Below are positions 19,508 to 43,556 of a stretch of 64,000 bases of DNA, piece by piece (the first letter of the stretch is position 1; every line of letters begins with the position of its first letter). This DNA comes from Spinacia oleracea (taxonomy: Eukaryota > Streptophyta > Magnoliopsida > Caryophyllales > Amaranthaceae): positions 1,426,001-1,490,000 of the forward strand of contig NC_079492.1 in the NCBI RefSeq assembly GCF_020520425.1, read 5' to 3'. The position numbers and the translations under genes were made by a program. The notes under the pieces were generated by a model. The model saw only the letters and a program-made list of their open reading frames with translations, did no database searches and was not told the origin of the DNA.

Positions 19508-19512
19508 ATAAG

Positions 19513-19903
19513 TGTTCCGGTGTTGTAAAGATGGAAACAATGGGCTTCGAATGAAGGCCCTTTTGTATGTGTTGAAGATCTTGCTTGTTTGAATGAGTGG
19601 AATCCGAATTCACCTGCACAAGAGCAAAGTCACTAGCCTCGGGGGTGTTTCCGAGGAAAGCCCCTCCGATGCCTAAGTAAGAATGATGCTCGGATTCTAG
19701 AGAGAAGTTCTCTAGAAGAGTAGTCTTAAGGCGGTAAATTGGACGTACCTTGAGGTGTGAGCCTTGGCGGCCTATTTATAGTGTTTGCATAATAAATGCC
19801 CATAGGTCATTTATTGTTATTGGGCCTTGGGCCTTAATGGATGGCTGAATAGCCATTGGTAGGTTTGATGTTGTTGTTTAGAGCCATTGGGCTTTGGACT
19901 TAG
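19513..19903 (-). repeat. Gypsy 3' LTR, outer part
   Basis: This matches 41180-41570 base for base as far as I can compare by eye. It ends at CTTAG, where the Copia element inserted. The remaining 39 bases of this LTR continue at 30386 after the Copia element. Confidence 0.92.
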
Positions 19904-21282: not shown

Positions 21283-21283
21283 G

Positions 21284-21297
21284 TGGTATCACGAGCC
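21284..21297 (+). promoter_or_regulatory. Copia primer-binding site with one extra base
   Basis: TGGTATCACGAGCC starts two bases after the LTR. The usual plant Copia site, complementary to initiator tRNA-Met, is TGGTATCAGAGCC. This one has an extra C after TGGTATCA. Confidence 0.75.
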
Positions 21298-24155: not shown

Positions 24156-27100
24156 ATGGCAAACAACAATCAAAACATCATCATGGGTTCTGAGCTTATG
24201 GTCAAGCTGAACCTGACAAATTTTCTTGAATGGGAAGCTAAGCTAGTTGAAATAGTCAAACTCAATGGGCTTGAGTATGTACTGTCACATCCCATGCCAA
24301 GCTACTATGCTAGAGACATGACCCCTGAGAGATTTTACGCCTGGGATGCGGATCTCAAAAAGGTTATGAGTCTCATGCTGAACAATATCCCTGATGATTG
24401 GGCTAGAAGGTTTGTAGCCTATGAACCTTTTACGCTCATCAAAAATCTGAGGGATATCTGTCGTGGAAGTACGGAGGACAGGGACCTGAACGTCCATGAG
24501 TTGATTGAATCAATGTCTGGTCTAAAGGTTAGTTCTCCCAACAGGTGTTATAGGATGGAGGTCCAAGAAACACATGTTCAGCTCCTTCGCACTAAACAAA
24601 GGGTAGGCGTCCCACTGAGGTTCCATGTGGATCTTATGTGTTCATATTTTGATCGCCTAAGTCTACTAGGAACACCAATAAGCGAAAGGATGGCAGTCTC
24701 TGTCTTGCTCAATTCACTACACAGTGGGTTTGGTCGCTTCAAGCAACTATACCTAAGTGAACCAAGAGAAGAAACAGTTGCAGAATTTATTCACCTTGTC
24801 AGAAAGGCTGAAATAGTACTGGACTGTGAAGCCAAAGATTTACTCAAGGCTAGAAAGAGACCATTCAAGAAAGGTGGAAAGTCCAAGGGCAATGCTAAAT
24901 CAAAGCAGGACAAGTCCACATCAAGCTGTCTTTATTGTGATGGAATAGGCCATTACAAAAGAGAATGTCCAAAGCTAAAGGAAGATCAGAAGAACGGAAC
25001 AGTCGTTCCATCTTCAGGTATTTTCGTTATAGACTGTATACTTGCTAATTCAACTTCTTGGGTATTAGATACAGGTTGTGGCTCACACTTATGTTCCAAT
25101 CCACAGGGACTAAGAAGAAGTAGAAAGTTAAGCAAGGGTGAAGTCGACCTACGAGTGGGAAATGGAGCACGGATTGCTGCATTAGCTGTAGGAACTTACT
25201 ATTTGTCGTTGCCCTCCGGGCTAGTTTTGGAACTGGAAGAATGTTTCCATGTTCCAAGTCTTACTAAAAACATCATTTCAGTTTCTTGCTTAGATGCTAA
25301 GGGATTTTCCTTTATAATAAAAGACAATAGTTGTTCGTTTTATTTTAAAGAGATGTTTTATGGATCTGCTAGATTAGTCAATGGACTTTATTTATTAGAT
25401 CACGACAAACAAGTATATAACATAAATACCAAAAAGGCCAAAAAGGATGATTCAGATCTCACCTATCTGTGGCATTGTCGATTAGGCCATATAAACTTGA
25501 AACGCTTAGAAAGACTTCAAAGGGAAGGAATTCTAGAACCATTTGACTTAGAGGATTATGGTAAATGCGAATCATGTTTACTTGGCAAAATGACAAAGCA
25601 ACCTTTCTCTAAAGTTGGAGAAAGAGCAAATGAACTATTGGGTTTAATCCATACAGATGTATGTGGACCAATGAGTACAAATGCTAGAGGTGGTTTCAGC
25701 TACTTTATCACTTTCACTGATGACTTCAGTAGGTATGGTTATGTCTACCTAATGAAGCATAAGTCTGAATCCTTTGACAAATTCAAGGAATTTCAGAGTG
25801 AAGTAGAGAATCAATTAGGCAAGAAGATTAAGGCACTGCGGTCTGATAGAGGCGGTGAATATCTGAGCTATAAATTTGATGACCATCTGAAAGAATGTGG
25901 AATTCTATCAGAATTGACTCCTCCTGGAACACCACAATGGAACGGTGTGTCAGAACGGAGGAACAGAACCTTGCTAGACATGGTCAGGTCAATGATGGGT
26001 CAGGCCAAACTTCCATTAGAATTTTGGGGACATGCACTAAATACAGCTGCACTCACTATAAATAGAGCTCCGTCTAAAGCTGTCGAAAAGACTCCATACG
26101 AATTATGGTTTGGAAAGCCTCCAAATGTGTCTTTTCTTAAGATTTGGGGATGTGAAGTATACGTCAAACGATTAATTTCAGACAAACTTCATCCAAAATC
26201 TGACAAATGTATCCTTGTGGGCTATTCAAAGGAAACAAAGGGGTATTACTTCTACAATACATCTGAGAACAAAGTGTTTGTTGCTCGAGATGGTGTCTTT
26301 TTGGAGAAGGATCACATTTCCAAAATGACAAGTGGGAGAAAAGTAGACCTCGAAGAAATTCGAGTCGAACAACAAACTCTAGAGAATGCTCAAGATGACA
26401 TTCAAGATGAAACTCAGAGATCTTTAGAAGAATCTGGTGAGAATCATGGTCAATCTAGAAATGTTACCCCGCGTAGATCGCAAAGATATAGATCTCAACC
26501 AGAAAGGTACTTGGGTATTTTGACGAACGAGAGCTATGACGTTCTATTACTTGAAAGTGATGAACCTGCGACTTACAAGCAAGCTATGACGAGCCCTAGC
26601 TCCAAGCAATGGCAAGAAGCCATGCAATCTGAATTAGACTCCATGTCTGAAAACCAAGTATGGGATTTGGTCGATTTGCCAGATGGCTACCAAGCCATTG
26701 GAAGCAAATGGGTTTTCAAACTGAAAAAGGACAAGGATGGGAAACTTGAAGTTTTCAAAGCTAGATTGGTTGCAAAAGGTTACAGGCAAGTCCACGGTGT
26801 GGATTACGATGAAACCTTTTCACCAGTTGCAATGCTAAAGTCTATTCGAATAATGTTAGCAATCGCTGCATATTACGATTACGAAATATGGCAGATGGAT
26901 GTCAAAACTGCTTTCTTAAACGGCGTTTTAACAGAAACTGTGTTTATGACACAGCCTGAAGGTTTTGAGGATCCAAAGAATGCTAAAAAGGTATGCAAGC
27001 TAAAGAAGTCAATCTACGGATTGAAGCAGGCATCCAGGAGCTGGAATATACGTTTTGATGAAGCAGTCAGTGACTTTGGTTTCATCAAGAACGCGGACGA

Positions 27101-28142
27101 ATCTTGTGTATACAAGAAGGTCAGTGGGAGCAAAATTGCTTTCCTAGTATTATATGTCGACGACATATTGCTTATCGGAAATGACATTCCTATGTTGAAC
27201 TCTGTCAAGATTTGGCTTGGGAAATGTTTTTCGATGAAGGATCTAGGAGAAGCACAGTACATATTGGGCATCAAGATTTACAGAGATAGATCTAAAAAGA
27301 TGATTGGACTTAGTCAAAGCACTTATATCAATAAGGTGCTTGATAGGTTCAAGATGGCGGACTCCAAGCGAGGCTACCTACCCATGTCTCATGGAATGAC
27401 TCTAAGCAAGACTCAGTGCCCAAAAACACTTGATGAGCGTAGACGAATGAATGGGATTCCATATGCATCATTGATTGGTTCAATAGTGTATGCTATGATA
27501 TGTACACGCCCGGATGTTGCGTACGCACTCAGTGCTACGAGCAGATACCAGTCAGACCCAGGAGAGGCGCATTGGACTGCTGCCAAGAACATTCTGAAGT
27601 ACCTGAAAAGGCACAAAGATGACTTCCTGGTCTATGGTGGAGATGATGAATTAATTGTTAAAGGCTATACGGACGCAAGTTTCCAAACCGACAAAGATGA
27701 TTTCAGATCACAGTCTGGGTTTGTCTTCTGCCTCAACGGAGGAGCAGTAAGCTGGAAAAGTGCTAAGCAAAGCACCATTGCGGATTCTACAACTGAAGCG
27801 GAGTACATTGCTGCACATGAAGCAGCAAAGGAAGCTATATGGCTAAGGAAGTTCATAGGTGAACTTGGTGTAGTCCCCTCCATTAAAGGACCAATAGCCC
27901 TGTATTGTGATAATAACGGAGCTATTGCACAGGCAAAAGAGCCTAGACACCACCAGAGAGTCAAGCATGTACTTCGTAGATTTCACCTTCTACGAGAGTT
28001 CGTTGAAAGAAAAGAAGTCGAGATAAGCAAAATTGGAACTGATGACAACATATCAGATCCATTAACTAAACCTCTGCCGCAAGCGAAGCACAACTCGCAC
28101 ACTGCAGCTATGGGAATCAAGCATATTGGAGAATGGCTTTGA
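24156..28142 (+). CDS. Copia gag-pol polyprotein, uninterrupted
   Basis: The frame opens at 24114, but the ATG at 24156 (MANNNQNII) is the likelier start, since the 14 codons before it are hydrophobic and unlike gag; this gives 1328 residues. Order, numbered from 24114: gag; zinc knuckle CLYCDGIGHYKREC (about 272-285); protease WVLDTGCGSHLC (about 316); integrase zinc-binding LWHCRLGHIN...CESCLLGK and catalytic core with HTDVCGP and SDRGGEY; reverse transcriptase with FLVLYVDDILL (about 1011-1021); RNase H with TEAEYIAAHEAAKE (about 1228). No stop or frameshift is seen. It makes all enzymes needed for copying and inserting the element. It ends 864 bases before the 3' LTR. Confidence 0.95.
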   Translation: MANNNQNIIMGSELMVKLNLTNFLEWEAKLVEIVKLNGLEYVLSHPMPSYYARDMTPERFYAWDADLKKVMSLMLNNIPDDWARRFVAYEPFTLIKNLRDICRGSTEDRDLNVHELIESMSGLKVSSPNRCYRMEVQETHVQLLRTKQRVGVPLRFHVDLMCSYFDRLSLLGTPISERMAVSVLLNSLHSGFGRFKQLYLSEPREETVAEFIHLVRKAEIVLDCEAKDLLKARKRPFKKGGKSKGNAKSKQDKSTSSCLYCDGIGHYKRECPKLKEDQKNGTVVPSSGIFVIDCILANSTSWVLDTGCGSHLCSNPQGLRRSRKLSKGEVDLRVGNGARIAALAVGTYYLSLPSGLVLELEECFHVPSLTKNIISVSCLDAKGFSFIIKDNSCSFYFKEMFYGSARLVNGLYLLDHDKQVYNINTKKAKKDDSDLTYLWHCRLGHINLKRLERLQREGILEPFDLEDYGKCESCLLGKMTKQPFSKVGERANELLGLIHTDVCGPMSTNARGGFSYFITFTDDFSRYGYVYLMKHKSESFDKFKEFQSEVENQLGKKIKALRSDRGGEYLSYKFDDHLKECGILSELTPPGTPQWNGVSERRNRTLLDMVRSMMGQAKLPLEFWGHALNTAALTINRAPSKAVEKTPYELWFGKPPNVSFLKIWGCEVYVKRLISDKLHPKSDKCILVGYSKETKGYYFYNTSENKVFVARDGVFLEKDHISKMTSGRKVDLEEIRVEQQTLENAQDDIQDETQRSLEESGENHGQSRNVTPRRSQRYRSQPERYLGILTNESYDVLLLESDEPATYKQAMTSPSSKQWQEAMQSELDSMSENQVWDLVDLPDGYQAIGSKWVFKLKKDKDGKLEVFKARLVAKGYRQVHGVDYDETFSPVAMLKSIRIMLAIAAYYDYEIWQMDVKTAFLNGVLTETVFMTQPEGFEDPKNAKKVCKLKKSIYGLKQASRSWNIRFDEAVSDFGFIKNADESCVYKKVSGSKIAFLVLYVDDILLIGNDIPMLNSVKIWLGKCFSMKDLGEAQYILGIKIYRDRSKKMIGLSQSTYINKVLDRFKMADSKRGYLPMSHGMTLSKTQCPKTLDERRRMNGIPYASLIGSIVYAMICTRPDVAYALSATSRYQSDPGEAHWTAAKNILKYLKRHKDDFLVYGGDDELIVKGYTDASFQTDKDDFRSQSGFVFCLNGGAVSWKSAKQSTIADSTTEAEYIAAHEAAKEAIWLRKFIGELGVVPSIKGPIALYCDNNGAIAQAKEPRHHQRVKHVLRRFHLLREFVERKEVEISKIGTDDNISDPLTKPLPQAKHNSHTAAMGIKHIGEWL

Positions 28143-28995
28143 TGTCTCTGTTTAATGTTTTAAAGTTTTAGAGTTTAAATCTTTGTAAAACATTATTGGT
28201 TAATCATTCACAATAAATGAAAGGAATTCATTTTTCCATTTAATTTGTGGTTTATTAAATGATGAGTCCCTTCAACTTGACGATATATTCAAGATAGACT
28301 GTCAGGACCAGTCCTGTGACTAAGAAATGTCTATCAAGTGAACTTGAATGTCAAAGGTTGAAAATGGTCCCTAATCGGAGTTTTCTATAAAATTGGACGC
28401 ATAGAAAACGTTAGACGATTAGAATGCAAGATGACTAGTAGTTCTGTTTCTTGAACTATGTGGACATGGCAATGTCATAATCATTTGCATAGATACTTAC
28501 TTTGGGAAGACTAGTATCGGACAAGACCTATGAAACTTTACTGTAAGAGATGAAAGTCTGTCATAAGTAAATTTCATTAAATTATTAGACACTAAATCCT
28601 CAATACCTGAGTGATTTGAGATTACTTGTTTGAGAACTGGTTGCTTTGACGTTGACCAACCGTCGCACCGTAAAAGGAGGCTATAAAGGCAACGCTCAGG
28701 TAATCACCTATCAAACGAAGTCTAATCTCAAGATCGCAAGATTGGGATTGTCCTCCCATAAATCGGGATGAGATGCTTAAAAGTTGTACAAGGCCACTCG
28801 GAGAGCTAGAAACTGTGAAATGCATGGCCGTGCTCGGATGAATCATAGGCTATGATTATCTGTTTATTTGATCAGTTGAACTCTGAAACCGAGGAACGCC
28901 TCTGGACATAATAAGGATGACAACTCTTACCTTATGTTCAAGAGCAAGCATCGAGCGACAAAGGAATTAGGAAATGCACACTTGTCCCTAAGGAC
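28143..28995 (+). other. Copia 3' untranslated region
   Basis: About 850 bases without a long plus-strand frame. It ends in a perfect hairpin, CACTTGTCC-CTAA-GGACAAGTG (28978-28999), directly against the polypurine tract. Confidence 0.6.
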
Positions 28996-29006
28996 AAGTG
29001 GGAGAC
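28996..29006 (+). promoter_or_regulatory. Copia polypurine tract
   Basis: AAGTGGGAGAC lies directly before the 3' LTR. This is the usual purine tract of plant Copia elements and primes plus-strand synthesis. Confidence 0.85.
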
Positions 29007-30385
29007 TGAAGGAAATAATGCCCTTGGTCCAAGTATGCATTCTATGTTAAGTCTAATAAATGCGGTTCAGTATTAATTAACAAGTTAATAATTCAGTGAG
29101 ATCAAGTGAGCTGAATGCCTAGCTAGAGGCCGCTTCAGTTCAAGTGGAATTAATGATATTAATCCACAGCTTACTCTTGACTGAACCCGTAGGGTCACAC
29201 AAATAGTACGTAAACGGATCAAGTATTTAATGGCATTAAATACTCCATCTATGAATATTCGGAACCGACGGATCTTGGTTTCAGTGGGAGCTAAGATCGT
29301 CACAGGCAAGAAATGAATACTCCGGAAACGATGATATTGCCGGAAACGGAAATATGGATCGTATCGGAAATATGAATATTATCCAAGTCGTAGATGTTGC
29401 CGGAAACGGAAACATGGTACGTATCGGAAAATATTATCGGAAATGGAAATATTACCAGAATCGGAAATATTGCCGGAAACGGAAATATTGTCAGAATCGG
29501 AAATATTATCGGAATCGGAAAATAATTCCGGAAACGGAAATATTAAATATTTGTTCGAAACGGAAATTGATTCCGGAATCGGAAATATTAAATATTGTTC
29601 GTATCGGAAATGAATTCCGGAACCGGGAATTTAATCGGAAGCGTATCGTACGAATTAGCATCGGACGAGGCCTGCCGGACGAAGGCCCAGCACGAAGCCG
29701 GGCCATCGCCCAGCAAGCACGCGCGCCACAAGCCCAGCCAAGGCAGCGCCCAGGCCTACCGCAAGGCAGGCCCAGCGCGCGCCAAGGCCACGGATGCGTG
29801 GGCCGCGCTGCGTGGGCTGCTGCTCGCACGCGCATGGGCAGCCCTTGTGGATGCCGTGTGTGTGTGAGTTTGTGCTCATGCGTGATTCCTAAATCTACAA
29901 GAGTTAGTGTATGATTAAATTCCTATTCCTAAATTGGATAAATTAATTAAATAGAATTCATGTAGGATTCTAATTTCAATTAATTCGTATCCTACTAGGA
30001 TTACGATTCCTTTTCCGTAACTCTATAAATAAAGGCCTAGGGGTCATTATTTATACAGAAGTTTTAAGTATTCAAAACTAAGATTTTTAAGCAGAAAAAT
30101 CAGCCAATATTCTTGCCTACCTAACCGAAAATATTAGAACCTTAAGGGCGATTCTAGTTGGTCAATCTTAAGGCGGATCCGGACGTGCTGTGGACTATCT
30201 ACGGAGGGACGACACTTGGAGTCCTAAAGACTTGTTCTTGTTCGGTTCGGGCGCAGCTAGGGAAGGCACGCAACAAAGAGTATGCATCTAAACTATGCTA
30301 AATGATTATGTGTAAATAATATGTTTCCTGGCTTTATGGTTTTTCCGCATGATTTATGAACTGTCATATGAATCATAACCTAACA
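29007..30385 (+). repeat. Copia 3' LTR
   Basis: 1379 bp with the same content and spacing as the 5' LTR, including the TATA box at 30024-30033. It is preceded by a purine tract and followed by the CTTAG duplication. Confidence 0.95.
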
Positions 30386-30424
30386 CTTAGTGGCCCAATT
30401 GAGAATCAATTGGGAGCCCAAACA
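30386..30424 (-). repeat. Gypsy 3' LTR, inner part after the Copia insertion
   Basis: Begins with the second copy of CTTAG and ends ...GAGCCCAAACA, the same end as the other LTR at 41604. Together with 19513-19903, and counting CTTAG once, it rebuilds a 425-bp LTR. Confidence 0.92.
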
Positions 30425-30438
30425 ACATGCCCCCCAGA
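30425..30438 (-). promoter_or_regulatory. Gypsy polypurine tract
   Basis: Directly before the 3' LTR, the minus strand reads GGGTCTGGGGGGCATGT. This is the G-rich tract expected to prime plus-strand DNA synthesis. Confidence 0.65.
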
Positions 30439-30604
30439 CCCGGTCCATTTAGAATTAAATGGGTGGGTTTCCAGCTGTCAGAAGTCCGAAAGTTCCCTCT
30501 CTTTTTTTGAAAAGGGATGATTTGCATTGATGACAAGTGTTGGGAATTGTAATGTGTCATGGAGATCGTGGGTTTGAGGAAGTTGATGCGCCCTTTCTCT
30601 TTTC

Positions 30605-30612
30605 TATAAATA
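30605..30612 (+). promoter_or_regulatory. TATA box of the antisense Gypsy gene
   Basis: TATAAATA lies 262 bases before the ATG at 30867. It is followed at about 25-60 bases by CTTTTTACTCC and TTCTCTCTC, a plausible pyrimidine-rich start region. This is a promoter on the strand opposite to gag-pol, inside the element body. Confidence 0.55.
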
Positions 30613-30866
30613 CTGGGTGCTTTGCTCCTTTTGAACTTTTTACTCCTTATTTCAAACCCATTCTCTCTCTAAATTCCGGCGATCGCAGTGCAATTTGCTT
30701 CTTCAGATCTACGAAATTCGGCCAACTTTAGACTTCGGGAACTTGTGTTGTTCGCTTTATCGGCGAATTCCGCTTCGGAAAAAGGTAATTTGCTTCTGAG
30801 TTCTCCTTTTTTCTTCGCTCTTCCTTCTACCCCTCACTCTAAACCCTAGATCGAGATTTCGCGACC

Positions 30867-33800
30867 ATGGCAAAGAATAGGGGCAAAAGCAAGTTCGTTG
30901 TTGGTTCCTCTAGTGAGAGAGAGAACGTGCCTTCGGGGAGGTTACCGAAATCTTCGAGGGGTCGACCTTCGGAGAGGCCGTTGGTGAAGAGTTCGATTGG
31001 TTGGGATGCTTCCGAAGATGAACGCGCAACCTCTGGTGAGAGAGCTGGCTTTTTGGGTGCTCGTCGTCGTTACTCCGAGTTTCCAGTTCATTGGACGGAA
31101 GCTGATCCGAAGGGTAAGTATGCCTCAATTTTGCACGAGACCACGCAGATCGACGGTCCGTTGGAGAAATCGGTCAGCGGTGACTGGTTGGTGGAAGCGA
31201 AGTTAGGGAATTATCATCGGAAGGCCGAGGAGCTATACGGAATTCAGCATGCCTTGGGGTACTGGTGCGAGCTTCCTGAACAAGAGCGTCCTCGGGTGAC
31301 TCATCCACCGAGGGGGTTCATTTCCGTGTACACTCACCATTTGGAGAATGGTCTCCGCTTTCCTTTGGATCCGTTCGTATCCGAGCTTTTGGTGTCGTAC
31401 AACATTAGTTTGGCCCAGCTCACACCCAAATCTATGAGGCACATAATCGGATTTAGATGGGTGTGTGACTTCGTCAATTTCCCTTGCTCTGTCGCTATTT
31501 TTCGGGATCTTCACGATCTGGTTCTCAACCATGCTTCCAAGGGTGATGGGTATGGTTGGTGGACCATTGTCAACAAGAAGTCCCGAAAGAGGGGGGATCC
31601 GAACTACATCACGGCGTACCCCTACCTTAGCTCTGACCACAATTGGAAGACGGAGTGGTTGCTCGTCCGTGTGCCGACGGATCCGAAGCATCCCAACTTT
31701 TATCGTCCTCCGAAGTGGTTCGTGGCTCCTGATCCTGATATGAGGGGTGTGGCAGCTCCAGATCGGAACCATCGCCACTATGTGGACCTCCTCCAGTGGT
31801 TCTTGGCTCAAGAGGATAACCATCGACTGCCGTCTAGCTGGCTCCCGAATCTCAATTACATTTTGAGGGAGGACATTCTTGCTGTTGCCGGTCTCAGCAG
31901 GATTTTTGACAGGGGTAGGTGTCTTTCGGCTGAGACCGTTTTTTCAGTGAGTTTGTCCTCTTTCCTGTTTCGTTTTGCTGACATGTTTTGTGCTTTGTTT
32001 TTGCAGAGTACGGCTTTAGCTGCATTGATCCTAAGAAGTTGGGCATTTCTTTGGATTTGAAGACTATTCACGACCCGGCTCCCGAGTACAAGTTCGGAAA
32101 AGATAACCCTCGTAATCCTCGTCTGAAGGATTACGTGTTGTCTCCTTCGGGGGTTGCTCGGATATCCGAAGTTCGAGCTGATCCGTGGGATTCCGCCTCT
32201 TCTGTTGAAGCTGTTCCTGTGAAGGTTGTGCTTCCTGAGTTGAAGACAACTTCGGACCCGGTGAGTGTTCATTTATAAGCTCGATTTTCTGTTTATCTTT
32301 TTCTTTTCGGTTGGCCGTCGGCTAACGTCTTGGTCCTGGACCATCTTTTTAGGGTCCTGGGACTGACGCTGTGCCGCGTGCCGTTCCTTCGGTTTCATCT
32401 CCGGCTCGGATAGATATCACTTTATCTAGGAACCGGGTATTTCCCGCTTTTTTCTCTATTTCTTCCTTTTTCTTCTTTTATATTCGTTGACCCTTGGTCT
32501 CCCCTTTTTAGGATCAACGCAAAAGGAAGGGTAGCACTCTTTTGAGGCCGTCCACGCATCCGAAGAAAGCGAAGGCTTCTCAGCCCTCGGAGAAGGTATT
32601 TGTTCTGACTTGGATTTTTTGTAGTTCGTTTCTCCCTTTTTCGGAAACTAATCTTTGAACGCTTGCTATGTAGGAAGCGGTTTCGGAAGTCATGCCTCCT
32701 CCTAAGAATCTTCTTCACTTCATGCCCTTGCCAGGGCAGAAGTTAAAGAGTGTGGTGGTTGCTGAACCGCCGCCCGTGGATCAGCCGCTGATCGAGGAAG
32801 ATATCATCCCTTCTCCCCTTAAACCATCTGCTGCTTTGGGGATCGAAATCCAGGATATCACCGAGGTGATGGAGGCGATTGAAGCCGATTTTGTTCCTGG
32901 TTCGGATGTCCCTGAGGTAGCTGGGGAGAAGAAGGAGTCTGCTGATCTTCCCTTCGAGAGGGAGAAGAGTCCAGACAAGGAGATGATAGATCTCTCGGGC
33001 CCCGAAGCTGCGGTCCCCGAGGTTCAGAAGGAGGTTCCCTCTGCTGGAGAGGAGGAGCAGCCCGAGCAAGGTTTGACGAGGAAGAGGCGCCACTCAACTT
33101 TGGGTTCTACTTCTACCTCGGCCCTGGATAGGCTGATCCATGCTGATCCCTGTTCGGATGTTCCGCTAAAACGGATCCCCGAAGAAGTAAGGGAGGCGAT
33201 GGCTCGATATGCCAGGGCTCCGATTTTGGGAGAGGACCCCTTGGCTCACGTGGGATCCTTGGTGGGCCCCGAGGCTGCTCGGGAGAATCTGCTTCGTGCT
33301 AACCCGCAGTGGAGGGTTCCTGGTGCCGAAGAGAGGAATCCGGCTATGATGGCCCAGTACTATCTGAACGAGGTAATTTGCTAGATTTTTCTCTTTGAGT
33401 TGTGTTTTCGTTTTATGTTTTTCCTATTTTGCTCATCTTTCTCTCGTTCCCAGGCTGTTTTCTGGTCTTCGTTCGCTTCCGAGTGTAGCTCGGTTGAGGA
33501 GAAACAACTGAGGAAATATCGTGAGGCTTATGCTCGTGATATTCCCATTTTGGACCAGAAGGCTGGGCAACTCCTCTCCGAGCTTACGGAACTCAAGCAG
33601 CTGTACCTTCACTATAGTCGCGAGGCTAGAGAGTCTGCTGAGAAGATCGGGACCGAGGTTGGCCAGCTCATCTTCCGAGTTGAAGAGGATGCTGAGAAGA
33701 TCGCTTCCTTTGCTGAGGAAAAGAAGGATATGGCCGCTAAGTTCGCTAGCGAACTTGAGGAAAAAGATAGACTCTTCCAGGAGATGAAGTCTAAATTTGA

Positions 33801-34254
33801 AGCGGCCGACAAGGAGCATAAAGAGGCGGAGTTAAGGCTCCACCATTTTGTCCAGCATCGGGAGCTGATCCAGCAGCAAGCTGATAAGGTGCCTGTCCTT
33901 CGACTGAAGCTTCGGGAAAAGGATGACTATATTCGGAAGCTGGAGCAGGAGCGAGTCAACCTCTACACTGCTGATCAGTGTAGAGAGCAGTACTGGAACG
34001 GCATCCTGGGTGCTCGGCGCATGTTTGCGAAGCACATGCCTCACTTCCCTTGGAACGAGAAAGTTCCTCTATGGATGCAGGCCGAGGACCACTTGGTGGA
34101 ATGCCAAGCTGATCGAGATGAAGCTGAAGCTGAACGCCAAGCTGCTCTTGCAGAGGCTCGGGCCCAGAAGGCAACTTCCGAAGGTGATACCACTGCTGGG
34201 GGTTCTTCGAAGGATGCTCCCCTAGGGGCCGCTCCTGAGACTCCCAAGAGTTAG
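30867..34254 (+). CDS. Antisense six-exon gene of the Tat element ('putative gypsy type transposon' domain)
   Basis: Exons 30867-31914, 32007-32260, 32353-32436, 32512-32595, 32674-33372 and 33454-34254 join in one frame of 989 residues. The five introns are short (75-92 bp) with GT-AG ends, and four of them fall between codons. Residues about 145-260 (GFISVYTHHLENGLRFPLDPF, then SLAQLTPKSMRHIIGFRWVC) match the plant family described as putative gypsy type transposon (Transposase_28). Then come two small exons with a basic, possibly nuclear-targeting stretch (QRKRKG...HPKKAKA), an acidic middle (about 500-640), and a C-terminal coiled coil (exon 6, KKDMAAKFASELEEKDRLFQEMK and on). Antisense ORFs at this place are known in some Tat elements; their job is unknown, and I do not claim a transposase activity. 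A likely poly(A) signal, AATAAA, is at about 34486. Confidence 0.85.
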
Positions 34255-34570
34255 GGATTCGGGCAGTTGTCTTCTTCAGAGTCGGTCGGTTCCAGTTGAG
34301 GACTTCCGAATATGTGCTTGCTTTTCCCCCTTTTGCCTCGGCGCTGCGTTGTACTCATTTCTTTTTGCTTTCTTTTAGTACTTCGGTAGGCCGGTATTGT
34401 CTGTTGATGGCTGCCGATTTTAACTGTTTCATTTTGTTTTCAATTTTTGAGGTTTTCAGTGTATTTGTACTCCCCCCAAATATTGAATAAAAAATGAATG
34501 TTTGTTACTTGGCTGCTTCTTTTCAATTTGTACTTTCGCAATTTTAGGTCTTTAGATCCGTAGATTTCTC

Positions 34571-34970
34571 GAGCTCCTCTTTCTGTAGACTTGCTAAAAA
34601 CCTTTTGATCTTGCGAGCTCTTTACATCCGTAGATCTGTTAAGAGACTTTTTAACTTTTGCGAGTTCTTCAAATCCGTAGATCTGCTAAGAGACTCTTTG
34701 ACTTTGCGAGTTCTTCAAATCCGTAGATCTGTTAAGAGGCTCTTTAGTTTTGCGAGTTCTTCAAATCCGTAGATCTGCTAAGAGACTCTTTAGTTTTGCG
34801 AGTTCTTCAAATCCGTAGATCTGCTAAGAGACTCTTTAGTTTTGCGAGTTCTTCAAATCCGTAGATCTGCTAAGAGACTCTTTAGTTTTGCGAGTTCTTC
34901 AAATCCGTAGATCTGCTAAGAGACTCTTTAGTTTCCAGACTCTTCAAATCCGTCGATCTGCTTAGAGGTT
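34571..34970 (+). repeat. 46-bp minisatellite between the convergent Gypsy genes
   Basis: About eight to nine units, in phase at 34615, 34662, 34708, 34754, 34800, 34846 and 34892, with worn units at both ends. The unit begins GAGTTCTTCAAATCCGTAGA and ends CTCTTTAGTTTTGC. Middle units are nearly identical. It sits between the 3' ends of the antisense gene and pol. Tandem repeats in this 3' region are known in Tat/Ogre-type elements. Confidence 0.9.
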
Positions 34971-35355
34971 TGGATTGTTCTTCCGATCTCTTGTGGTTCG
35001 GAAACCTGGGCAAGAGATCGCTAGTCTGCCTCTTTAGTTATGCCTTCGGCGATCCGTGGATCTGAGCCGGAGTTTTATAACTTGATTCGAGCGACTGTTT
35101 GTTGCGAACAAATTTTATTAGGGTACCGCGAATCCGAGGATTCTGGACGATTCCCTGAAGTGTATGATTTGGTCATTTCTTGCATTTTATCAAGGAATGG
35201 GCAAAGTCAACCTGTTTTTAGTCTCGGATTGATCAGATCCGAGGCTGCATATATATATAAAGGGACAATAATTATAGAGATAAGTTTAATGAAACACATG
35301 GTGCCAATGGCTTTCCTCTTCTCATTAAACAACTTACTTGGTTTACAGACAGGGA
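34971..35355. other. Gypsy spacer between minisatellite and pol stop
   Basis: The 3' untranslated region of the gag-pol transcript. It has no convincing gene; a plus-strand frame at 35040-35375 overlaps the pol end and looks accidental. Confidence 0.5.
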
Positions 35356-38300
35356 TCATACAAAATATTTCTTGAGAACATCGGTATTCCAATGGTTCTT
35401 CAGGATTGTTCCATCTAACTGTTTCAGCATATACGTGCCTGGCCTTTTTTCGGAATGGATGATGTATGGTCCTTCCCAAGTGGCTGAGAGTTTGCCATGG
35501 ATCCGTCCTTTCTGAACCGAGGCGGCGTTTCTGAGTACTAGATCACCGACTTTTAGGGGTCTGGCGTTGACTCTTCGGTTGTAATGCTTGTTGACCCTCT
35601 GCAAATAGGCTGCGTTGAGTGTCCTTGCATCGTTCCGAGCTTCGTCCAGTAGATCGAGAGCTTCGGATAGAAGTTGATTGTTGCTTTCTCCTTGGAGCCC
35701 ATCATATCTGTTGTATGCCTGGATCCTCAGGCTTTCTGTTCCGATTTCCACAGGAATTACAGCTTCGGATCCGTATACAAGGTGGAACGGTGTTTGTCCG
35801 GTAGCTTCTTTTTCAGTGGTCCGAAGGGACCATAGCGTTCCGGGTAGCTCTTCTAACCATTTGTTTTTGTCATCCTCGACTCTTTTCTTGAGTGCGTTGA
35901 GGATGAGTTTGTTAGCAGCTTCGGCTTGCCCGTTGCTTTGTGGGTGACAGACTGCCGAGTACGCTAGGTGTATGCCGAACTGTTTGCACCACTTTTGCAA
36001 CGGGGTGTTGTCGAACTGTTTCCCGTGGTCGAAGACCATCAGTCTTGGTATGCCGAACCTTGTGATGATGTTCTGCCATATGAACTTGCGGACCTGAGGT
36101 TCGGTGATGGAGGAGACAGCTTCGGCTTCGATCCATTTGCTAAAATAGTCGACTCCTACAATCAACCACTTCTTCTGGTTCGTCGCTGAGGGGAAGGGAC
36201 CAATGATGTCTAACCCCCACTGTGCGAATGGTAAGGGATACAGTGTTGATTGTAGGGTTTGAGCTGGTTGATGGATGGCTGGTGCGAACTTTTGGCATTT
36301 CTCGCATTTCCTTGCCATCTGCTTTGCCTCGGAAACCATAGTGGGCCACCAGTACCCAGCCCGAAGGGCTTTATGTGCTAATGTCCTACCTCCAATGTGG
36401 TTTCCGCATATCCCGAGGTGGATTTCCCTTAGGATGTAGTCAGCGTCTGTTGGACCCACACATTTTAGCAACGGAGCAGAGAATGATTTCCTCATGAGCT
36501 CTCCTTCGGCGCTGATGATGAACCATCTGTTGAATCTTTTCAGTTTTCTCGCTTGCAGCTTATCTTCGGGAAGTTCTCCCCTTTCTTTGTATGCAACTAC
36601 TGCGTCCATCCAGCTAGGTTCGGTACGTAAGCTGCATACTGTGGTGGGTAGCAAGTCGATGCTTCTCTTTTGGTGAACTTCCACGTGGACCGACCTGTTT
36701 AGGTCGACGAGTGTTGAGCTTGCGAGTTTTGACAGTGCGTCTGCTTGCGTGTTCTGTCCTCGGGGAATGAGGATGACTTCAAAGGATCTTAACTTTGACG
36801 TTAAGGATTTAATTTTTGCTAAATAGGCTGTCATGCTGGGCCATTTGGCCTCATACTCCCCTCGGATCTGGTTGGCTACAAGCTGGGAATCAGTTTTGAG
36901 GCGAACATGTTCGGCCTCCAGGGATAAACAAAGCTCTATCCCTGCGATTGCGGCCTCGTATTCGGCCTCGTTGTTGGTTGCTTTGAAGCCGAACTTCAAT
37001 GCATACTCTATGCTTTTCCCCGTCGGGGGGATTAGTACAACTCCTGCCCCTGAGCCGTTTACTGTGGAAGATCCGTCAGTGAAGACCTCCCAAGTGCTTT
37101 TCGTATCATCCAACATTTCCTGGTATGAGCACTCGGCCAAGAAGTCTGCCAATGCTTGTGCTTTGATTGCTGTCCTCGGCTGATATTTGATGCCGAACTC
37201 TGATAGTTCGAAGGCCCAGGCAGCCAATCTTCCTGACCTCTCTATTTTGTCGAGTACTTTTTCGAGCGGTTGGTCAGTTAGCACTGTGATCTGGTGGGAG
37301 TCGAAGTATGGCCTCAGTTTTCGTGCAGCTACCACTACTGCATATGCGACTTTCTCGATGAGTGGGTACCGGGTTTCGGCTCCTGTGAGTGTTCGGCTGG
37401 TGAAGTAGATTGGCTGTTGCTTCTTTTCTTCTTCCCGAAGAAGCACTGCGCTGACGGTTCCAGGGCTAACTGCGACATATAGGTACAGGGTTTCCCCCTC
37501 CTTTGGTCTGGCCAGTGTCGGCAGTTGAGCTAGGTGGGCTCTGAGTTGCTGAAAAGCTTCTTTTTGCTCCTGTTCCCATATCAGTTCGGGATCCACTTTC
37601 CTCGGGACCCCCTTTTTCTTGACTGGTTCTGCTTCTCCTCCGGGGAGGTTCTTTGGTTTCAGTGCCTTGAAGAAGGGGGCTCCCTTGTCCGAGGCTTTTG
37701 ATATGAACCTTGTTAGTGCGGCTAACCTGCCGGTTAGCCTCTGCACATCTCTCTTGGTCTTCGGCTCGGGTAAATCCAATGCCGCTTGGACTTTGTCTGG
37801 GTTCGCATCAATTTCTCTTTCGCTCACCATGAATCCGAGGAACTTCCCTGACTTCACCCCGAAGACGCATTTTTTTGGGTTCAGCTTCATGCTGTATTTC
37901 CTCAGATTTCCGAAGGTCTCTGCCAAGTCTTTGACATGGTCTTCCTCCTTGATGCTTTTTACGATGGAGTCATCCACGTAGACCTCCACATTCCTCCCTT
38001 TCTGGTCGGCGAAGACGTGGTCAACTAACCTCTGGTAGGTGGCTCCGGCATTTTTCAAGCCGAAAGGCATCATTTTGTAGTTGAACACTCCTGCGCTTGT
38101 GATGAACGCTGTCTTTGCCCTGTCATCGGGGTGCATGAATACTTGGTGGTAGCCTGAAAAGGCATCCATGAAGCTGAGCAGTGCATGGCCGCTGGTGGAG
38201 TCAACCAGTTGATCTATCCTTGGCAGGGGATAGCAGTCTTTGGGGCAGGCTCGGTTCAGATCTGTGAAATCTACGCACATTCGCCATGAGCCGTTCGCTT

Positions 38301-41109
38301 TCTTGACCATCACCACGTTGGCCAGCCACTTCGGATACATGCATGGTTCGATGAATCCGGCCTCTTGCAACTTCTTAACTTCCTCGGCGATGGCTTTGTT
38401 TTTCTCCGAGGAGTAATTTCTCTTTTTTTGCTTGATTGGCCGAGCTTCAGCGTTGACATCCAGCTTGTGACAAATCAGCTTCGGATTTATCCCTGGCATA
38501 TCTGCTGCTGACCATGCAAAGATGTCTTTGTGATCCCTGAGTAGTCGGATCAAATCGATTCGGAGCCCCGAGCTTAGGCCCTTGCCTATTCGGACGCTCC
38601 TGTCTGAATTATCTTCGAGGAAGATATCCTCCATTTCTTGATCTGTTTCGGGAGATAGGGTTTCGGGGCGGGCATCAACTTCTGCGGGAGACAAGCTTCT
38701 CGTGCTTGCTCTTCTCCTTTTTGCCTCGCTTTCCTCTCCCTTAGCTCCCTTTCCTTCCTCGGGGCCGTCCTCCAATTTGGGTTTTCGGACAGCAGTGTGG
38801 CAGGTTCTTCTCGCCACTTCTTGATCACCTCTGATTCGTTCGGCGAATCCTGCATCCGAGACGTATATCATCAGCTGGTGGTATGTGGAGGGGACTGCTT
38901 GCATCTTGTGAATCATGGTTCTCCCCATGATTACGTTGTATACGGAGTCGCAGTCCATCACCAAAAATTCGTCCCGAAGGGTTTTTGCTGCCTGGCCTTC
39001 GCCCACTGTGACTGGCAGGGTGATCTTTCCTCGAGGGATAGCTGCGGATCCGTTGAATCCGATCAGAGGATAACTGACTTTCGTCAGTGCTTCCTCTGGT
39101 TCTTCGAGGATCAGCTGCTCGAAGCAGTTTCTGAAGATGATGTTGACGGCACTTCCTCCGTCGACTAACACTCGATGTACGTTGTGGTTGTTGAGGTCCA
39201 TGGAAATGACCAGAGGATCGTCATGTTTGTACTGGACTCCGAAGCAATCATCAGCAGTGAAGGTCATGTTCGGGGGGTGTGGTTGGTTGTCTCCAACCGC
39301 GCTGAAGTTGACCCGATGGGAGAGGGCTCTTAGGTGTTTTTTGCTGGCCTGGCCAGACTTCTGTCCCCCGAACACCACTAGGATGTCATTTTTCTTGTGC
39401 CCTGTTGCTTCGTAGACCCTTTTCTGGGGTTGCTCGTGTTGTTTGCCGCTTGCGGCCTTTTCTTTTTCCTCCCTTCGGTCTAACAAGTATTGTTTCAGGT
39501 AGCCTCGGCGAACGAGGTCCTCAATGTTGTCTTTCAGCGAGTTGCATTCTTCGGTATGGTGACCGAAGTCATCATGGAACTCGCACCATTTGTTCTTGTT
39601 TCTCCGAGCTGGGTTGGACTTGAGCTTCCCAGGTAGTTTCCACTTTTCGTCATTTCTATTGAGGCTGAATATCTCCTTTCGGGGCAGAGCTAGTGGAGTG
39701 TAGTTGGTGTACTTGGGTTGAAGTTCACCCCTTCTCCCGTCTTTCTTCGGGCTCATCTCTCTAGCTCCTACTTTCTCTTTCCCCTTCCTTGAGCCGCCCT
39801 CGGGCTTGCTCTGAGTATTCTTTGTGTCTCTCGGATCCGACGATCCTTTCAGTCTTGCAGCGGCCTTGTTGAACTCTTCGGTTCTGATGAACGCATCAGC
39901 CATTTGGAGCACGTCAGCTATTCTGGAGGGGTTCTTCATTGAGAGTTCGTCACGGAACTTCCCTTCCTGGAGCGCGTGCTTCAAGGCGAAGATGGCCACG
40001 TCTGGCTGCAAGTTTGGTATGTTTGTTGATTCCTTCATGAATCTGGCCATGAATTCTCTCAGACTTTCGTCTCTTTCTTGTTGGATTGAGGTCAGTTCTG
40101 CTGTGGTTCGCTCGGGGCGATTGTTGCTCACGAACTGTGTGCAGAATCTCTTTTTCAGCTTTTTCCAACTCTTGATCGATCCCTTCGGCAGCGATCTAAA
40201 CCACTCTCCCGCCACTCCGGTTAGCGTGGTTGGGAAATATTTACACCAGCATGCTTCGGAGTAGGGACTCAAGAACATCTGCTGCTCGTAGGAGATGACA
40301 TGATCCCTCGGATCTGTGATTCCGCTGTAGGTTAGGTGAGCTGGCAGTCTTACCTTCGGTATTTCTTCCATGATCAGCTCGTCCGAGAAAGGGGATGACG
40401 TAGGAGTCATGATTCTTTTCCCGAGTCTAGCCCTGATGCCTTCGTTTGCCGAGGCTCTGTGATTAGAACGTTCGGGCGTACGATGGGGGCTAGGGGTTCG
40501 ATCATGCCTCCCGTCTCGTCTTCTTTCTCGGCTACTGACCTCGGGTCGCTCGCCAGATCTGCTCGACTCACCTACCCCGAGTCTCGTATGGATCGAAGGT
40601 CTTAACCTTGAGTGGACCGAGGGCCTCAACCTGCTGAGTACCGAGCTTCGGATCCGAGGATTACGAGTAGTTGATTCGCTTTGGAGAGCTGTTGGAGTAG
40701 GCGATGGTCTCGCAAACCAATCTGGTTGCTGTTGTGCCCTTTTTTGGGTGTCCCACGTGCTTTCCATCCACCTCGACGTCAAGTGTGTACCTGTCAAGGG
40801 AAGGAGTTCTCGTTCGGGTCTGGACACTTCCACACTGGGTGGCTCGTTCAGCCTTCGCCTGGTCCTCCTCTCTTCTCTGCGGTCATTTGCCAGTCCTTGC
40901 TGCTTCTCATTGAAGAGGAAGTTTTGCATGATGGTCATGGCCGCAGTGAGCTCTTTCCTAGTTGGAATCGGAGGTCCTGCATTTGTGGCGGTCGTAGCTC
41001 TGCTTGGCTGTGACCTCGTCATCGATTGAGGGTGCCCCTCTTGGTCAGATTCTGAATCTGACCGCACCATCATATCGTCGTCATTGTTGTTAACAACATC
41101 GTTCACCAT
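35356..41109 (-). CDS. Gypsy (Tat) gag-pol polyprotein, uninterrupted
   Basis: One frame gives 1917 residues from the ATG at 41109 (MVNDVVNNN), 71 bases inside the LTR; the frame stays open upstream into the LTR to 41286, but only from a GTG. Order, numbered from 41286: gag (retrotransposon gag domain, about 310-480); CEFHDDFGHHTEEC, a zinc-binding motif (about 568-581); protease with LVDGGSAVN (about 707); reverse transcriptase with MPFGLKNAGATYQ and VYVDD (about 1103); RNase H; then WEVFTDGSSTVNGSGAG, the extra archaeal-type RNase H of Tat elements; integrase with an HHCC finger (HLGICGNHIGG...CEKCQKF) and GLDIIGPFPSA core. No stop or shift is seen, so the protein set looks functional. Confidence 0.94.
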   Translation of the reverse strand: MVNDVVNNNDDDMMVRSDSESDQEGHPQSMTRSQPSRATTATNAGPPIPTRKELTAAMTIMQNFLFNEKQQGLANDRREERRTRRRLNEPPSVEVSRPERELLPLTGTHLTSRWMESTWDTQKRAQQQPDWFARPSPTPTALQSESTTRNPRIRSSVLSRLRPSVHSRLRPSIHTRLGVGESSRSGERPEVSSRERRRDGRHDRTPSPHRTPERSNHRASANEGIRARLGKRIMTPTSSPFSDELIMEEIPKVRLPAHLTYSGITDPRDHVISYEQQMFLSPYSEACWCKYFPTTLTGVAGEWFRSLPKGSIKSWKKLKKRFCTQFVSNNRPERTTAELTSIQQERDESLREFMARFMKESTNIPNLQPDVAIFALKHALQEGKFRDELSMKNPSRIADVLQMADAFIRTEEFNKAAARLKGSSDPRDTKNTQSKPEGGSRKGKEKVGAREMSPKKDGRRGELQPKYTNYTPLALPRKEIFSLNRNDEKWKLPGKLKSNPARRNKNKWCEFHDDFGHHTEECNSLKDNIEDLVRRGYLKQYLLDRREEKEKAASGKQHEQPQKRVYEATGHKKNDILVVFGGQKSGQASKKHLRALSHRVNFSAVGDNQPHPPNMTFTADDCFGVQYKHDDPLVISMDLNNHNVHRVLVDGGSAVNIIFRNCFEQLILEEPEEALTKVSYPLIGFNGSAAIPRGKITLPVTVGEGQAAKTLRDEFLVMDCDSVYNVIMGRTMIHKMQAVPSTYHQLMIYVSDAGFAERIRGDQEVARRTCHTAVRKPKLEDGPEEGKGAKGEESEAKRRRASTRSLSPAEVDARPETLSPETDQEMEDIFLEDNSDRSVRIGKGLSSGLRIDLIRLLRDHKDIFAWSAADMPGINPKLICHKLDVNAEARPIKQKKRNYSSEKNKAIAEEVKKLQEAGFIEPCMYPKWLANVVMVKKANGSWRMCVDFTDLNRACPKDCYPLPRIDQLVDSTSGHALLSFMDAFSGYHQVFMHPDDRAKTAFITSAGVFNYKMMPFGLKNAGATYQRLVDHVFADQKGRNVEVYVDDSIVKSIKEEDHVKDLAETFGNLRKYSMKLNPKKCVFGVKSGKFLGFMVSEREIDANPDKVQAALDLPEPKTKRDVQRLTGRLAALTRFISKASDKGAPFFKALKPKNLPGGEAEPVKKKGVPRKVDPELIWEQEQKEAFQQLRAHLAQLPTLARPKEGETLYLYVAVSPGTVSAVLLREEEKKQQPIYFTSRTLTGAETRYPLIEKVAYAVVVAARKLRPYFDSHQITVLTDQPLEKVLDKIERSGRLAAWAFELSEFGIKYQPRTAIKAQALADFLAECSYQEMLDDTKSTWEVFTDGSSTVNGSGAGVVLIPPTGKSIEYALKFGFKATNNEAEYEAAIAGIELCLSLEAEHVRLKTDSQLVANQIRGEYEAKWPSMTAYLAKIKSLTSKLRSFEVILIPRGQNTQADALSKLASSTLVDLNRSVHVEVHQKRSIDLLPTTVCSLRTEPSWMDAVVAYKERGELPEDKLQARKLKRFNRWFIISAEGELMRKSFSAPLLKCVGPTDADYILREIHLGICGNHIGGRTLAHKALRAGYWWPTMVSEAKQMARKCEKCQKFAPAIHQPAQTLQSTLYPLPFAQWGLDIIGPFPSATNQKKWLIVGVDYFSKWIEAEAVSSITEPQVRKFIWQNIITRFGIPRLMVFDHGKQFDNTPLQKWCKQFGIHLAYSAVCHPQSNGQAEAANKLILNALKKRVEDDKNKWLEELPGTLWSLRTTEKEATGQTPFHLVYGSEAVIPVEIGTESLRIQAYNRYDGLQGESNNQLLSEALDLLDEARNDARTLNAAYLQRVNKHYNRRVNARPLKVGDLVLRNAASVQKGRIHGKLSATWEGPYIIHSEKRPGTYMLKQLDGTILKNHWNTDVLKKYFV

Positions 41110-41160
41110 TTTCGCGGAAAGAGGTGATTGATGTCTTTCAAAGGCTTTGAAGTGTTCTTC

Positions 41161-41177
41161 CCCACAGACGGCGCCAA
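41161..41177 (-). promoter_or_regulatory. Gypsy primer-binding site
   Basis: Three bases inside the 5' LTR, the minus strand reads TGGCGCCGTCTGTGGG. TGGCGCCG-type primer-binding sites are usual in Tat/Athila Gypsy elements. I did not assign the tRNA. Confidence 0.75.
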
Positions 41178-41179
41178 AT

Positions 41180-41604
41180 TGTTCCGGTGTTGTAAAGATG
41201 GAAACAATGGGCTTCGAATGAAGGCCCTTTTGTATGTGTTGAAGATCTTGCTTGTTTGAATGAGTGGAATCCGAATTCACCTGCACAAGAGCAAAGTCAC
41301 TAGCCTCGGGGGTGTTTCCGAGGAAAGCCCCTCCGATGCCTAAGTAAGAATGATGCTCGGATTCTAGAGAGAAGTTCTCTAGAAGAGTAGTCTTAAGGCG
41401 GTAAATTGGACGTACCTTGAGGTGTGAGCCTTGGCGGCCTATTTATAGTGTTTGCATAATAAATGCCCATAGGTCATTTATTGTTATTGGGCCTTGGGCC
41501 TTAATGGATGGCTGAATAGCCATTGGTAGGTTTGATGTTGTTGTTTAGAGCCATTGGGCTTTGGACTTAGTGGCCCAATTGAGAATCAATTGGGAGCCCA
41601 AACA
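41180..41604 (-). repeat. Gypsy 5' LTR
   Basis: 425 bp, with TG...CA ends. Read on the minus strand it starts TGTTTGGGCTCCC and ends CACCGGAACA. A TATA-like CACTATAAATAG lies at 41439-41450, giving a likely transcript start around 41410. The gag-pol frame stays open back into this LTR. Confidence 0.92.
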
Positions 41605-41609
41605 ATAAG

Positions 41610-41996: not shown

Positions 41997-42005
41997 TATA
42001 GCAAA

Positions 42006-42268
42006 CGGATATTTCATGAAATACCCCCGAGGTTTAAGTTAATTCACCAGGTACCCTCGTTGTTTCAGTAATCTACCAGGTACCCCTCAGGTTTCATTTT
42101 CTCGCATGACTTAACCCTGCCGTTAAGTGGCCGTTAGAAAAAAAAATTTCACCAGGTACCCTCGTAATTTATTTCACCAGGTACCCCTGAGGTTTTTTAG
42201 ATTTTCACCAGGTGCCCTTGTGCTTTATGGTAATTTCACCAGATACCCCTGCTCACCAACGGCTAGTT
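42006..42268 (+). repeat. MULE left inverted repeat
   Basis: Starts CGGATATTTCATGAAATACC. It holds repeated ACCAGGTACCC words and ends in ACGGCTAGTTT. A local hairpin, AACGGCTAGTTT/AAACTAGCCGTT, follows at its inner border. Confidence 0.9.
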
Positions 42269-42398
42269 TTTTTTAAAAAAACTAGCCGTTGGTAAGCCTT
42301 CTCTATTTAAAGGGGGAGCCGCTGCAACTCTTCACTACAAGTTTCTGTTCTTCCCCTTAACCAACTCATATTTTCCCTAATTCCCAACTCACCTTCAA

Positions 42399-42779
42399 AT
42401 GAGCTTATATTCTCAATCCCAATCTTCTTCTACAACGTATGAATCCTCATACGTTGTAGTTCCAAACAAAACATGCAACATATGTGGGAAAAAATTTGCA
42501 ATAAGAAGTTCTGAAACAATGAAAAATCCTCAAAGGCTATATTACAAGTGTGACTTATGTGACAACTTCAAGTGGTGCAAGGGAAGCATTAAGCAACCAC
42601 TGCCAATCAGAAACAACAGAGGTAGCACAAAGGAAGGAGAAATTGAAGAAAACAGAAGCTTGGATGAAGAAATTCACCAAATGAAGAAGAAACTCAAGCA
42701 GCAAAAGAAATTAATGCATGGAACTATCAATATTGGCATTGTAATGTTTTTTATTCTAGTATTTGTAATGAGAAAGTGA
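42399..42779 (+). CDS. GRF-type zinc finger protein with C-terminal membrane segment, inside the MULE
   Basis: 126 residues from ATG at 42399. Residues about 26-62 (CNICGKKFAIRSSETMKNPQ, then LYYKCDLCDNFKWCKG) give the C-x2-C...NP-R-Y-C...F-W pattern of GRF zinc fingers, which bind nucleic acid in other proteins. A charged coiled coil (about 80-106, DEEIHQMKKKLKQQKK) follows, and the end (INIGIVMFFILVFVMRK) is a hydrophobic anchor. GRF-coil-membrane proteins of this size are frequent in plant genomes, often uncharacterised. It lies wholly within the transposon and has a TATA-like TATTTAAA at 42303. It is convergent with the transposase remnant. It may be a helper gene of the element or a captured host gene; sequence alone cannot decide. 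Confidence 0.75.
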   Translation: MSLYSQSQSSSTTYESSYVVVPNKTCNICGKKFAIRSSETMKNPQRLYYKCDLCDNFKWCKGSIKQPLPIRNNRGSTKEGEIEENRSLDEEIHQMKKKLKQQKKLMHGTINIGIVMFFILVFVMRK

Positions 42780-42948
42780 ATGATGACATTTCATCAATAA
42801 TATGATATTTCATTTCCGAATTAAGTAGCTTTACAAAAGTGTGCCCCCGACACGCAAAAACTTTAAGTGTAGCTCTACAAAAACTTGCTCCCATTGGCAA
42901 AAGATATACATGATAAGTTTAGCAAAAAGTTATGCATAAATCACAAAA

Positions 42949-43533: not shown

Positions 43534-43556
43534 CTGTTACAGAACAAAACCTGGTG

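Follow-up and report, generated by a model that had tools for sequence, protein, structure and literature searches.

Background

Retand is an abundant lineage of plant retrotransposons marked by antisense open reading frames (ORFs). Antisense ORFs with a Transposase_28 domain (TRP28) are a known mark of the lineage (PMC11963269). Across 63 clusters, Vicient (2025) counted 104 antisense ORFs, of which 57 contain Transposase_28 and others have Smc-like matches (PMC11963269). That study used ORF Finder and unspliced ORFs, and the word 'intron' is absent from its text. A 2019 survey, which used getorf with a minimum ORF length of 250 codons, asked whether such extra ORFs have any function (PMC6317226), and a 2020 review asks for a search for spliced antisense transcripts (PMC7264820). 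Splicing of Retand antisense ORFs was not found described in the literature searched, and an earlier mention in print, for GENE23 or other extra ORFs of the Tat lineage, is possible. Here, a Retand element of spinach (Spinacia oleracea) is described whose antisense gene has six exons and a conserved domain of ~225 residues. It lies in a stretch of 64,000 nt (contig NC_079492.1, positions 1,426,001 to 1,490,000), referred to below as the window.

The HBZ antisense message of human T-cell leukemia virus type 1 (HTLV-1) is spliced and encodes a nuclear regulator. HBZ, named in PMC11963269, resembles the proposed spinach gene in outline, as an antisense message for a nuclear regulator, and no homology is claimed. 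The HTLV antisense promoter lies in the long terminal repeat (LTR) (PMC7264820), whereas the candidate promoter described here lies inside the element. GENE23 of the maize element Grande is antisense like the spinach gene, and an own promoter and a nuclear protein are reported for it (via PMC7264820 and PMC11963269); this likeness rests on description, not on sequence. Another Tat-lineage intron is found in Ogre gag-pol (PMC6317226). In contrast to the five antisense introns described here, it is single, lies on the sense strand and regulates the polyprotein.

Gene model

An earlier note, made from the letters of the window, had joined six exons into one frame, with short GT-AG introns and a TATA box of its own. 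The joined frame was recovered at 2970 nt (989 codons plus stop), and its five introns of 92, 92, 75, 78 and 81 nt all run from GT to AG. The TATA box holds as a candidate motif, present at -262 or -263 in 8/8 near copies (the window's own counted). The features of the gene are listed below. The ratio of nonsynonymous to synonymous substitutions (dN/dS) of each exon refers to seven divergent copies (L020, L021, L023-L025, L027, L028), and positions in the protein are given in amino acids (aa).

30605..30612, plus strand: TATA box candidate, TATAAATA, 262 nt upstream of the ATG
30867..31914, plus strand: exon 1, aa 1-350, Transposase_28-type domain at about aa 125-349, dN/dS 0.17
31915..32006, plus strand: intron 1, 92 nt, phase 1, at a place common to other Retand types
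32007..32260, plus strand: exon 2, aa 350-434, dN/dS 0.13
32261..32352, plus strand: intron 2, 92 nt
32353..32436, plus strand: exon 3, aa 435-462, 28 codons, dN/dS 3.3
32437..32511, plus strand: intron 3, 75 nt (74-95 nt in copies)
32512..32595, plus strand: exon 4, aa 463-490, basic bipartite-like stretch at aa 465-486, dN/dS 0.11
32596..32673, plus strand: intron 4, 78 nt (77-85 nt in copies)
32674..33372, plus strand: exon 5, aa 491-723, acidic, proline-bearing linker, dN/dS 0.11
33373..33453, plus strand: intron 5, 81 nt (81-97 nt in copies)
33454..34254, plus strand: exon 6, aa 724-989, coiled-coil-like at aa 737-905, then stop, dN/dS 0.12

The introns are T-rich and have a GC content of 0.33-0.42, compared to 0.50-0.57 in the exons. 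In-frame stops lie inside introns 2-5, and intron 1 shifts the frame. The longest frame obtainable with five or fewer freely chosen GT-AG introns was determined, with 60 dinucleotide shuffles as control. It measured 3027 nt in the stretch of the antisense gene and at most 1449 nt in 60/60 shuffles (mean 1098). The minus strand of the identical stretch gave 2013 nt, also above the shuffles, and this excess perhaps comes from the complementary frame with common third positions. A prokaryote promoter scan of the leader, with a model that is wrong for this DNA, gave no match. Judged by comparison with the copies described below, the stretch is very probably one protein-coding, spliced gene.

Introns and splice sites in the genomic copies

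The spinach genome was searched in 894,210,420 bases on 242 contigs. With exon 1 as query, 116 of 3202 candidates were scored as copies (window included), at 95-100% identity, and an internal stop was counted by eye in 5/116. Twenty of the 116 copies, picked to span the range, were compared; one of them (L012) is incomplete, leaving 19. The borders of the five introns are kept throughout, with GT donors in 95/95 and AG acceptors in 95/95 cases. Frame length is kept in 16/19 copies and the frame is fully open in 11/19. The frameshifted copies are L011, L022 and L026, and one stop each is found in L017, L018, L019, L023 and L024.

Insertions and deletions (indels) were counted as distinct events relative to the window. 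The exons show 8 indels in 2970 bases, five of them multiples of three and the other three located in the frameshifted copies. The introns show 19 indels in 418 bases, of which 17 are not multiples of three and two are. Indel density thus differs between introns and exons (odds ratio 17.6, Fisher p 3e-12), as does the share of multiples of three (p 0.011). Together with the kept borders, this pattern indicates that the introns tolerate what the exons do not.

Selection on the frame

The earlier note had derived selection from the intactness of the frame. On its own this argument is weak, because an element with identical LTRs has had no time in which to decay. The claim itself is borne out by the copies: with the window gene as reference, dN/dS (Nei-Gojobori) is 0.12-0.22 for 15 of the 16 in-frame copies, whose dS ranges from 0.03 to 0.16, while the sixteenth, L009, differs by one base. 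A ratio near 1 across copies had been named beforehand as the outcome that speaks against selection; this was tested, and no such ratio was found. Across 136 pairs, dN/dS falls from 0.44 at dS <0.01 to 0.15 at dS >0.06, as expected if insertions that have died drift while lineages still active remain under constraint. Within the protein, the ratio is 0.07 for aa 101-350 and 0.14 for aa 738-955.

As a control, 14 of the elements were searched for a piece of pol. It was recovered from 11, in one case over only 130 nt. The ratio for pol is 0.05-0.11 in 9/11 pieces, 0.87 in L009 (4 changes) and 0.30 in the short piece; the pol piece of L018 has one stop. The antisense gene has about twice the dN/dS of pol. 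That the two differ in selection by no more than about twofold argues that the protein pays for itself in replication.

Alternative frames of exons 1, 5 and 6 have ratios of at least 1.0. The exception is one complementary frame with common third positions, which has ratios of 0.22, 0.28 and 0.24 and is broken by 14, 5 and 8 stops in the window. The constraint is therefore not explained by a protein on the sense strand. Comparison of the copies shows one protein-coding, intron-bearing gene that has travelled with the element through many cycles of copying and been maintained by purifying selection.

Distant Retand types

Using the Transposase_28 model, the best 150 of 2698 candidates in the genome were scored, all listed above the cut-off; the control of this search gave one match, in E. 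coli, below the cut-off. The best 30 loci were used; grouped by best-matching representative, they form three types with 15, 11 and 4 loci. Exon 1 of the window could be aligned with six loci drawn from each of the three types, at 25-29% identity. A Gly-Leu pair is invariant, and six positions after it lies the counterpart of residue 349. In 27/30 loci, this counterpart is succeeded by G|GT, which in the window is the donor of intron 1, in the same phase. Exceptions are L040, which has AT for GT, and L046 and L055, which are not alignable to the exon end. Since loci within a type are related, this agreement represents three independent families and not 27.

Fourteen loci were read further by eye, and most contain acceptor-like AGs and further short open stretches. 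In L053 with L073 and in L057 with L074, the domain, a basic stretch and a coiled-coil-type last open stretch with its own stop were recognized by eye. L073 is also antisense, as a gag/protease-like frame is seen by eye on its opposite strand. The antisense gene is, to judge by these comparisons, long resident in these elements. L039 and L040 have opposed Transposase_28 frames ~1 kb apart (C1:15.59 Mb) and could be nested or inverted elements.

Host element

The gene was said to lie opposite in direction to gag-pol, within a Tat-lineage element with identical LTRs. Gag-pol is indeed on the minus strand and the antisense gene on the plus strand. The LTRs are identical at 425/425 positions (391 and 34 compared apart), and the element can be assigned more exactly to Retand within Tat. 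Its parts are as follows.

35356..41442, minus strand: gag-pol open frame, stop to stop, the first part reaching into the LTR
41180..41604, minus strand: 5' LTR, 425 bp, with target site duplication (TSD) ATAAG at 41605-41609
30391..30424, minus strand: 3' LTR piece nearest the antisense gene, 34 bp
19513..19903, minus strand: 3' LTR remainder, severed by a copia insertion, 391 bp, with TSD ATAAG at 19508-19512
34604..34967, no strand: tandem array of a 46-bp unit, 7.9 copies, between the pol end and the antisense gene

The minus strand of 35356-41442 encodes gag, reverse transcriptase (RT), RNase H, a second RNase H-like domain and integrase. The second RNase H-like domain (RVT_3, putatively of archaeal type) lies at 1456-1573, between RT_RNaseH (to 1416) and the integrase zinc-binding domain (from 1669); a second RNase H is also known from Ogre (PMC6317226). 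The LTRs begin and end with TGT..ACA, the ATAAG duplication is found on both sides, and a candidate primer binding site (PBS), TGGCGCCGT.., adjoins the 5' LTR. The assignment to Retand follows from the second RNase H, the antisense Transposase_28 ORF between pol and the 3' LTR, the 5-bp TSD, the TG..CA LTRs and the PBS. The antisense gene runs opposite to pol and does not represent an ENV-like sense ORF.

Retand elements often contain tandem arrays (PMC11963269). One published cluster, 'Spinacia oleracea 1' (PMC11963269), shares with the element an LTR length of 425 bp, one tandem array and an antisense PF04195 ORF between pol and the 3' LTR. The internal region has a length of 10,755 here and a mean of 10,719 in the cluster, and the part between pol and the 3' LTR 4,931 and 4,850, respectively. 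By lengths and array, not by sequence, the element fits as a member of this cluster.

The copia element (19904-30385) is nested in the Retand 3' LTR. It has a plus-strand frame at 24114-28142, two identical 1379-bp LTRs and the TSD CTTAG.

Strand bias at free sites

The codon usage of the antisense gene has a rank correlation of -0.17 with that of gag-pol, and of 0.79 for the complementary frame. Fourfold sites of gag-pol contain A 0.33 and T 0.14 on their own strand. Those of the antisense gene contain T 0.42 and A 0.08, which corresponds to A over T on the genomic strand. The introns of the gene have an A-T skew of -0.63 on the plus strand, compared to 0.02 in the nested copia frame and 0.09 and -0.06 in the flanks. 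The fourfold composition of gag-pol and the antisense gene differs by a chi-square of 16 when both are read on one strand, and of 196 when each is read on its own coding strand. At codon positions 1 and 2, the antisense gene runs against the strand bias. In the distant loci, A is below T at fourfold sites in 13/13 looked at.

The strand bias taken on at free sites indicates that the gene has long been copied as part of such elements, probably long enough to acquire this bias. Codon preference as usual in plants may account for some of the excess of T over A. Along 30400-41599, A exceeds T on the genomic strand in 14/14 segments of 800 bases (0.03 to 0.36).

Proposed function of the antisense protein

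Transposase_28 (PF04195) is found at aa 154-216 (E 1.3e-10; 41.8 bits, gathering cut-off 26.2). The conserved block comprises ~225 residues and ends at intron 1, such that the Pfam model of 69 residues covers about a third of it. The basic stretch at aa 465-486 is bipartite-like, and aa 737-905 show a heptad-like periodicity (p 0.0025 by shuffling). Based on these features, the protein is likely nuclear and is predicted to be self-associating. Homologues of exon 1 were not found in plasmids, phages, viral contigs or prokaryote contigs, and the pol piece has no homologue in viral contigs.

We moderately favor, as the best overall explanation, a spliced nuclear regulator expressed from an internal promoter. 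RNA polymerase II would transcribe the gene from a promoter just inside the 3' LTR, and splicing of the transcript at five places would yield a nuclear protein of ~989 residues. The 225-residue Transposase_28-type domain may contact DNA or chromatin, and the rest of the protein would consist of a nuclear signal of basic residues, an acidic linker and a coiled coil through which the protein pairs. The introns would escape removal in new copies because the genomic RNA is the other strand. They can be kept without selection for them, as splicing leaves the template of reverse transcription untouched. The most likely service of the protein would be regulation of the element's own chromatin or transcription, as an activator or anti-silencing factor. 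The Vandal case among the anti-silencing proteins of plant transposons (PMC11728184) serves as a model for this role. A regulatory or anti-silencing role rather than, e.g., integration targeting is proposed tentatively.

A number of observations weigh against a spliced nuclear regulator. The compared copies were chosen by hand among the best-scoring matches, with a bias toward intact copies. Exon 3 has dN 0.040 and dS 0.012, although its ratio of 3.3 derives from few changes in 28 codons. Intron cores diverge by 0.058-0.093 (uncorrected), compared to 0.078-0.159 (corrected) at synonymous sites of the same seven copies. The fourfold composition of the antisense gene and gag-pol is still unequal on one strand (p 0.001). 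In 13 distant loci, the TATA motif of the near copies could not be made out at a constant position. In the two distant loci with a recognized order of further parts, the window protein past exon 1 has no match (tblastn, E up to 1), so that the likeness of these parts lies in their order and does not extend to sequence. No spliced, intronless retrocopy was found among the best 150 of 1138 candidates, where the matches listed span at most 34/88 residues; this fits the earlier claim that the introns survive because the genomic RNA is made from the opposite strand. AlphaFold models computed without an alignment were too poor for use, with a mean pLDDT (predicted local distance difference test) of 35 for aa 61-349 and 49.5, with helices over the Transposase_28 part, for aa 145-282. 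DNA binding is a prediction by another group's tool (PMC11963269).

Alternative explanations

The protein could instead serve a later step of the life cycle, either bringing the pre-integration complex into the nucleus or selecting the insertion site. For GENE23, a nuclear location is reported and import has been suggested (PMC7264820), and the domain is named after transposases. A strength of selection that differs from that on pol by about twofold at most suits such a step as well. However, no sequence link to solved structures was found (best E 0.66 and 0.22), nor any other Pfam family above the cut-off; the one sub-threshold match is Herpes_ori_bp (E 0.049, in L053). The analyses performed here do not tell a later step apart from regulation. 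Regulation of the element's own chromatin or transcription is ranked first and nuclear entry or site choice, which we regard as somewhat unlikely, second.

Antisense transcripts of retrotransposons can form double-stranded RNA (dsRNA) and feed silencing (PMC7264820, PMC12786077). The antisense strand could accordingly act as RNA, pairing with the genomic RNA and tuning silencing, with the protein being incidental. A dsRNA role would hold neither a frame nor codon positions 1 and 2, but the seven divergent copies carry 162 distinct changes at position 3 and only 56 and 48 at positions 1 and 2. An RNA function is therefore improbable.

Surveys treat antisense ORFs apart (PMC11963269, PMC6317226), and a plain ORF search of 30425-35355 with the published limit of 600 nt does yield three plus-strand ORFs, of 397, 230 and 279 aa from ATG. 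These could be three separate, unspliced genes. However, the ORFs correspond to exon 1 with its read-through, to exon 5 and to exon 6. Where the first ORF reads on past exon 1, its end differs among copies, giving an open frame of mostly 368, 405 or 415 aa. Exons 2 and 4 are too short to be genes, yet both, unlike exon 3, are constrained. Furthermore, the ten splice dinucleotides are kept in 19/19 copies, while the introns gather frame-breaking indels. Three independent genes are thus very improbable, and one spliced gene is the preferred reading.

Least probable of all is a Retand version of the Plant Mobile Domain (PMD, PF10536) ORF of Ogre: additional ORFs do occur in the sister lineages (57% of Ogre elements have PMD and 23% of Retand elements have Transposase_28; PMC6317226), but the link is unsupported by hhalign, which gave a probability of 0.4% over 21 columns for seven Transposase_28-type and seven PMD domains of this genome, a weak test with shallow profiles (effective number of sequences ~2.5).

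Open PMD frames are clustered at C4:141.8-143.7 Mb (L079, L082-L089). Of the 12 best PMD matches, nine lie within 2 Mb on C4, perhaps as a host gene cluster.

Other features of the window

Just outside the LTR, at 42005-43820, inverted arms of ~265 bp (97%) surround 1.3 kb with a 195-aa minus-strand frame, resembling a DNA transposon. Two 450-bp direct repeats (98.4%), 2.7 kb apart, are found at 51000-54632 and perhaps represent a small LTR element. The region 57283-63845 contains long direct repeats (87-93%, up to 1.5 kb) with tandem parts.

Implications

For other plants, the simplest reading would be that many of the catalogued antisense ORFs are exons of one gene, with the Smc-like matches being its coiled coil. 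More speculatively, the Retand antisense ORFs across flowering plants may be exons of one ancient spliced gene, whose introns were carried through every retrotransposition since before the families split. These introns might have been kept since a spliced antisense message passes as a gene transcript, escapes dsRNA silencing and expresses a nuclear anti-silencing protein. If there is one spliced gene, plain ORF surveys have split its protein into fragments and judged the domain by a third of its residues, and studies of expression, localization and structure would need the joined gene. A multi-intron gene can persist in a retrotransposon when it lies on the non-genomic strand, and the approach taken here gives a test of selection on such antisense genes.

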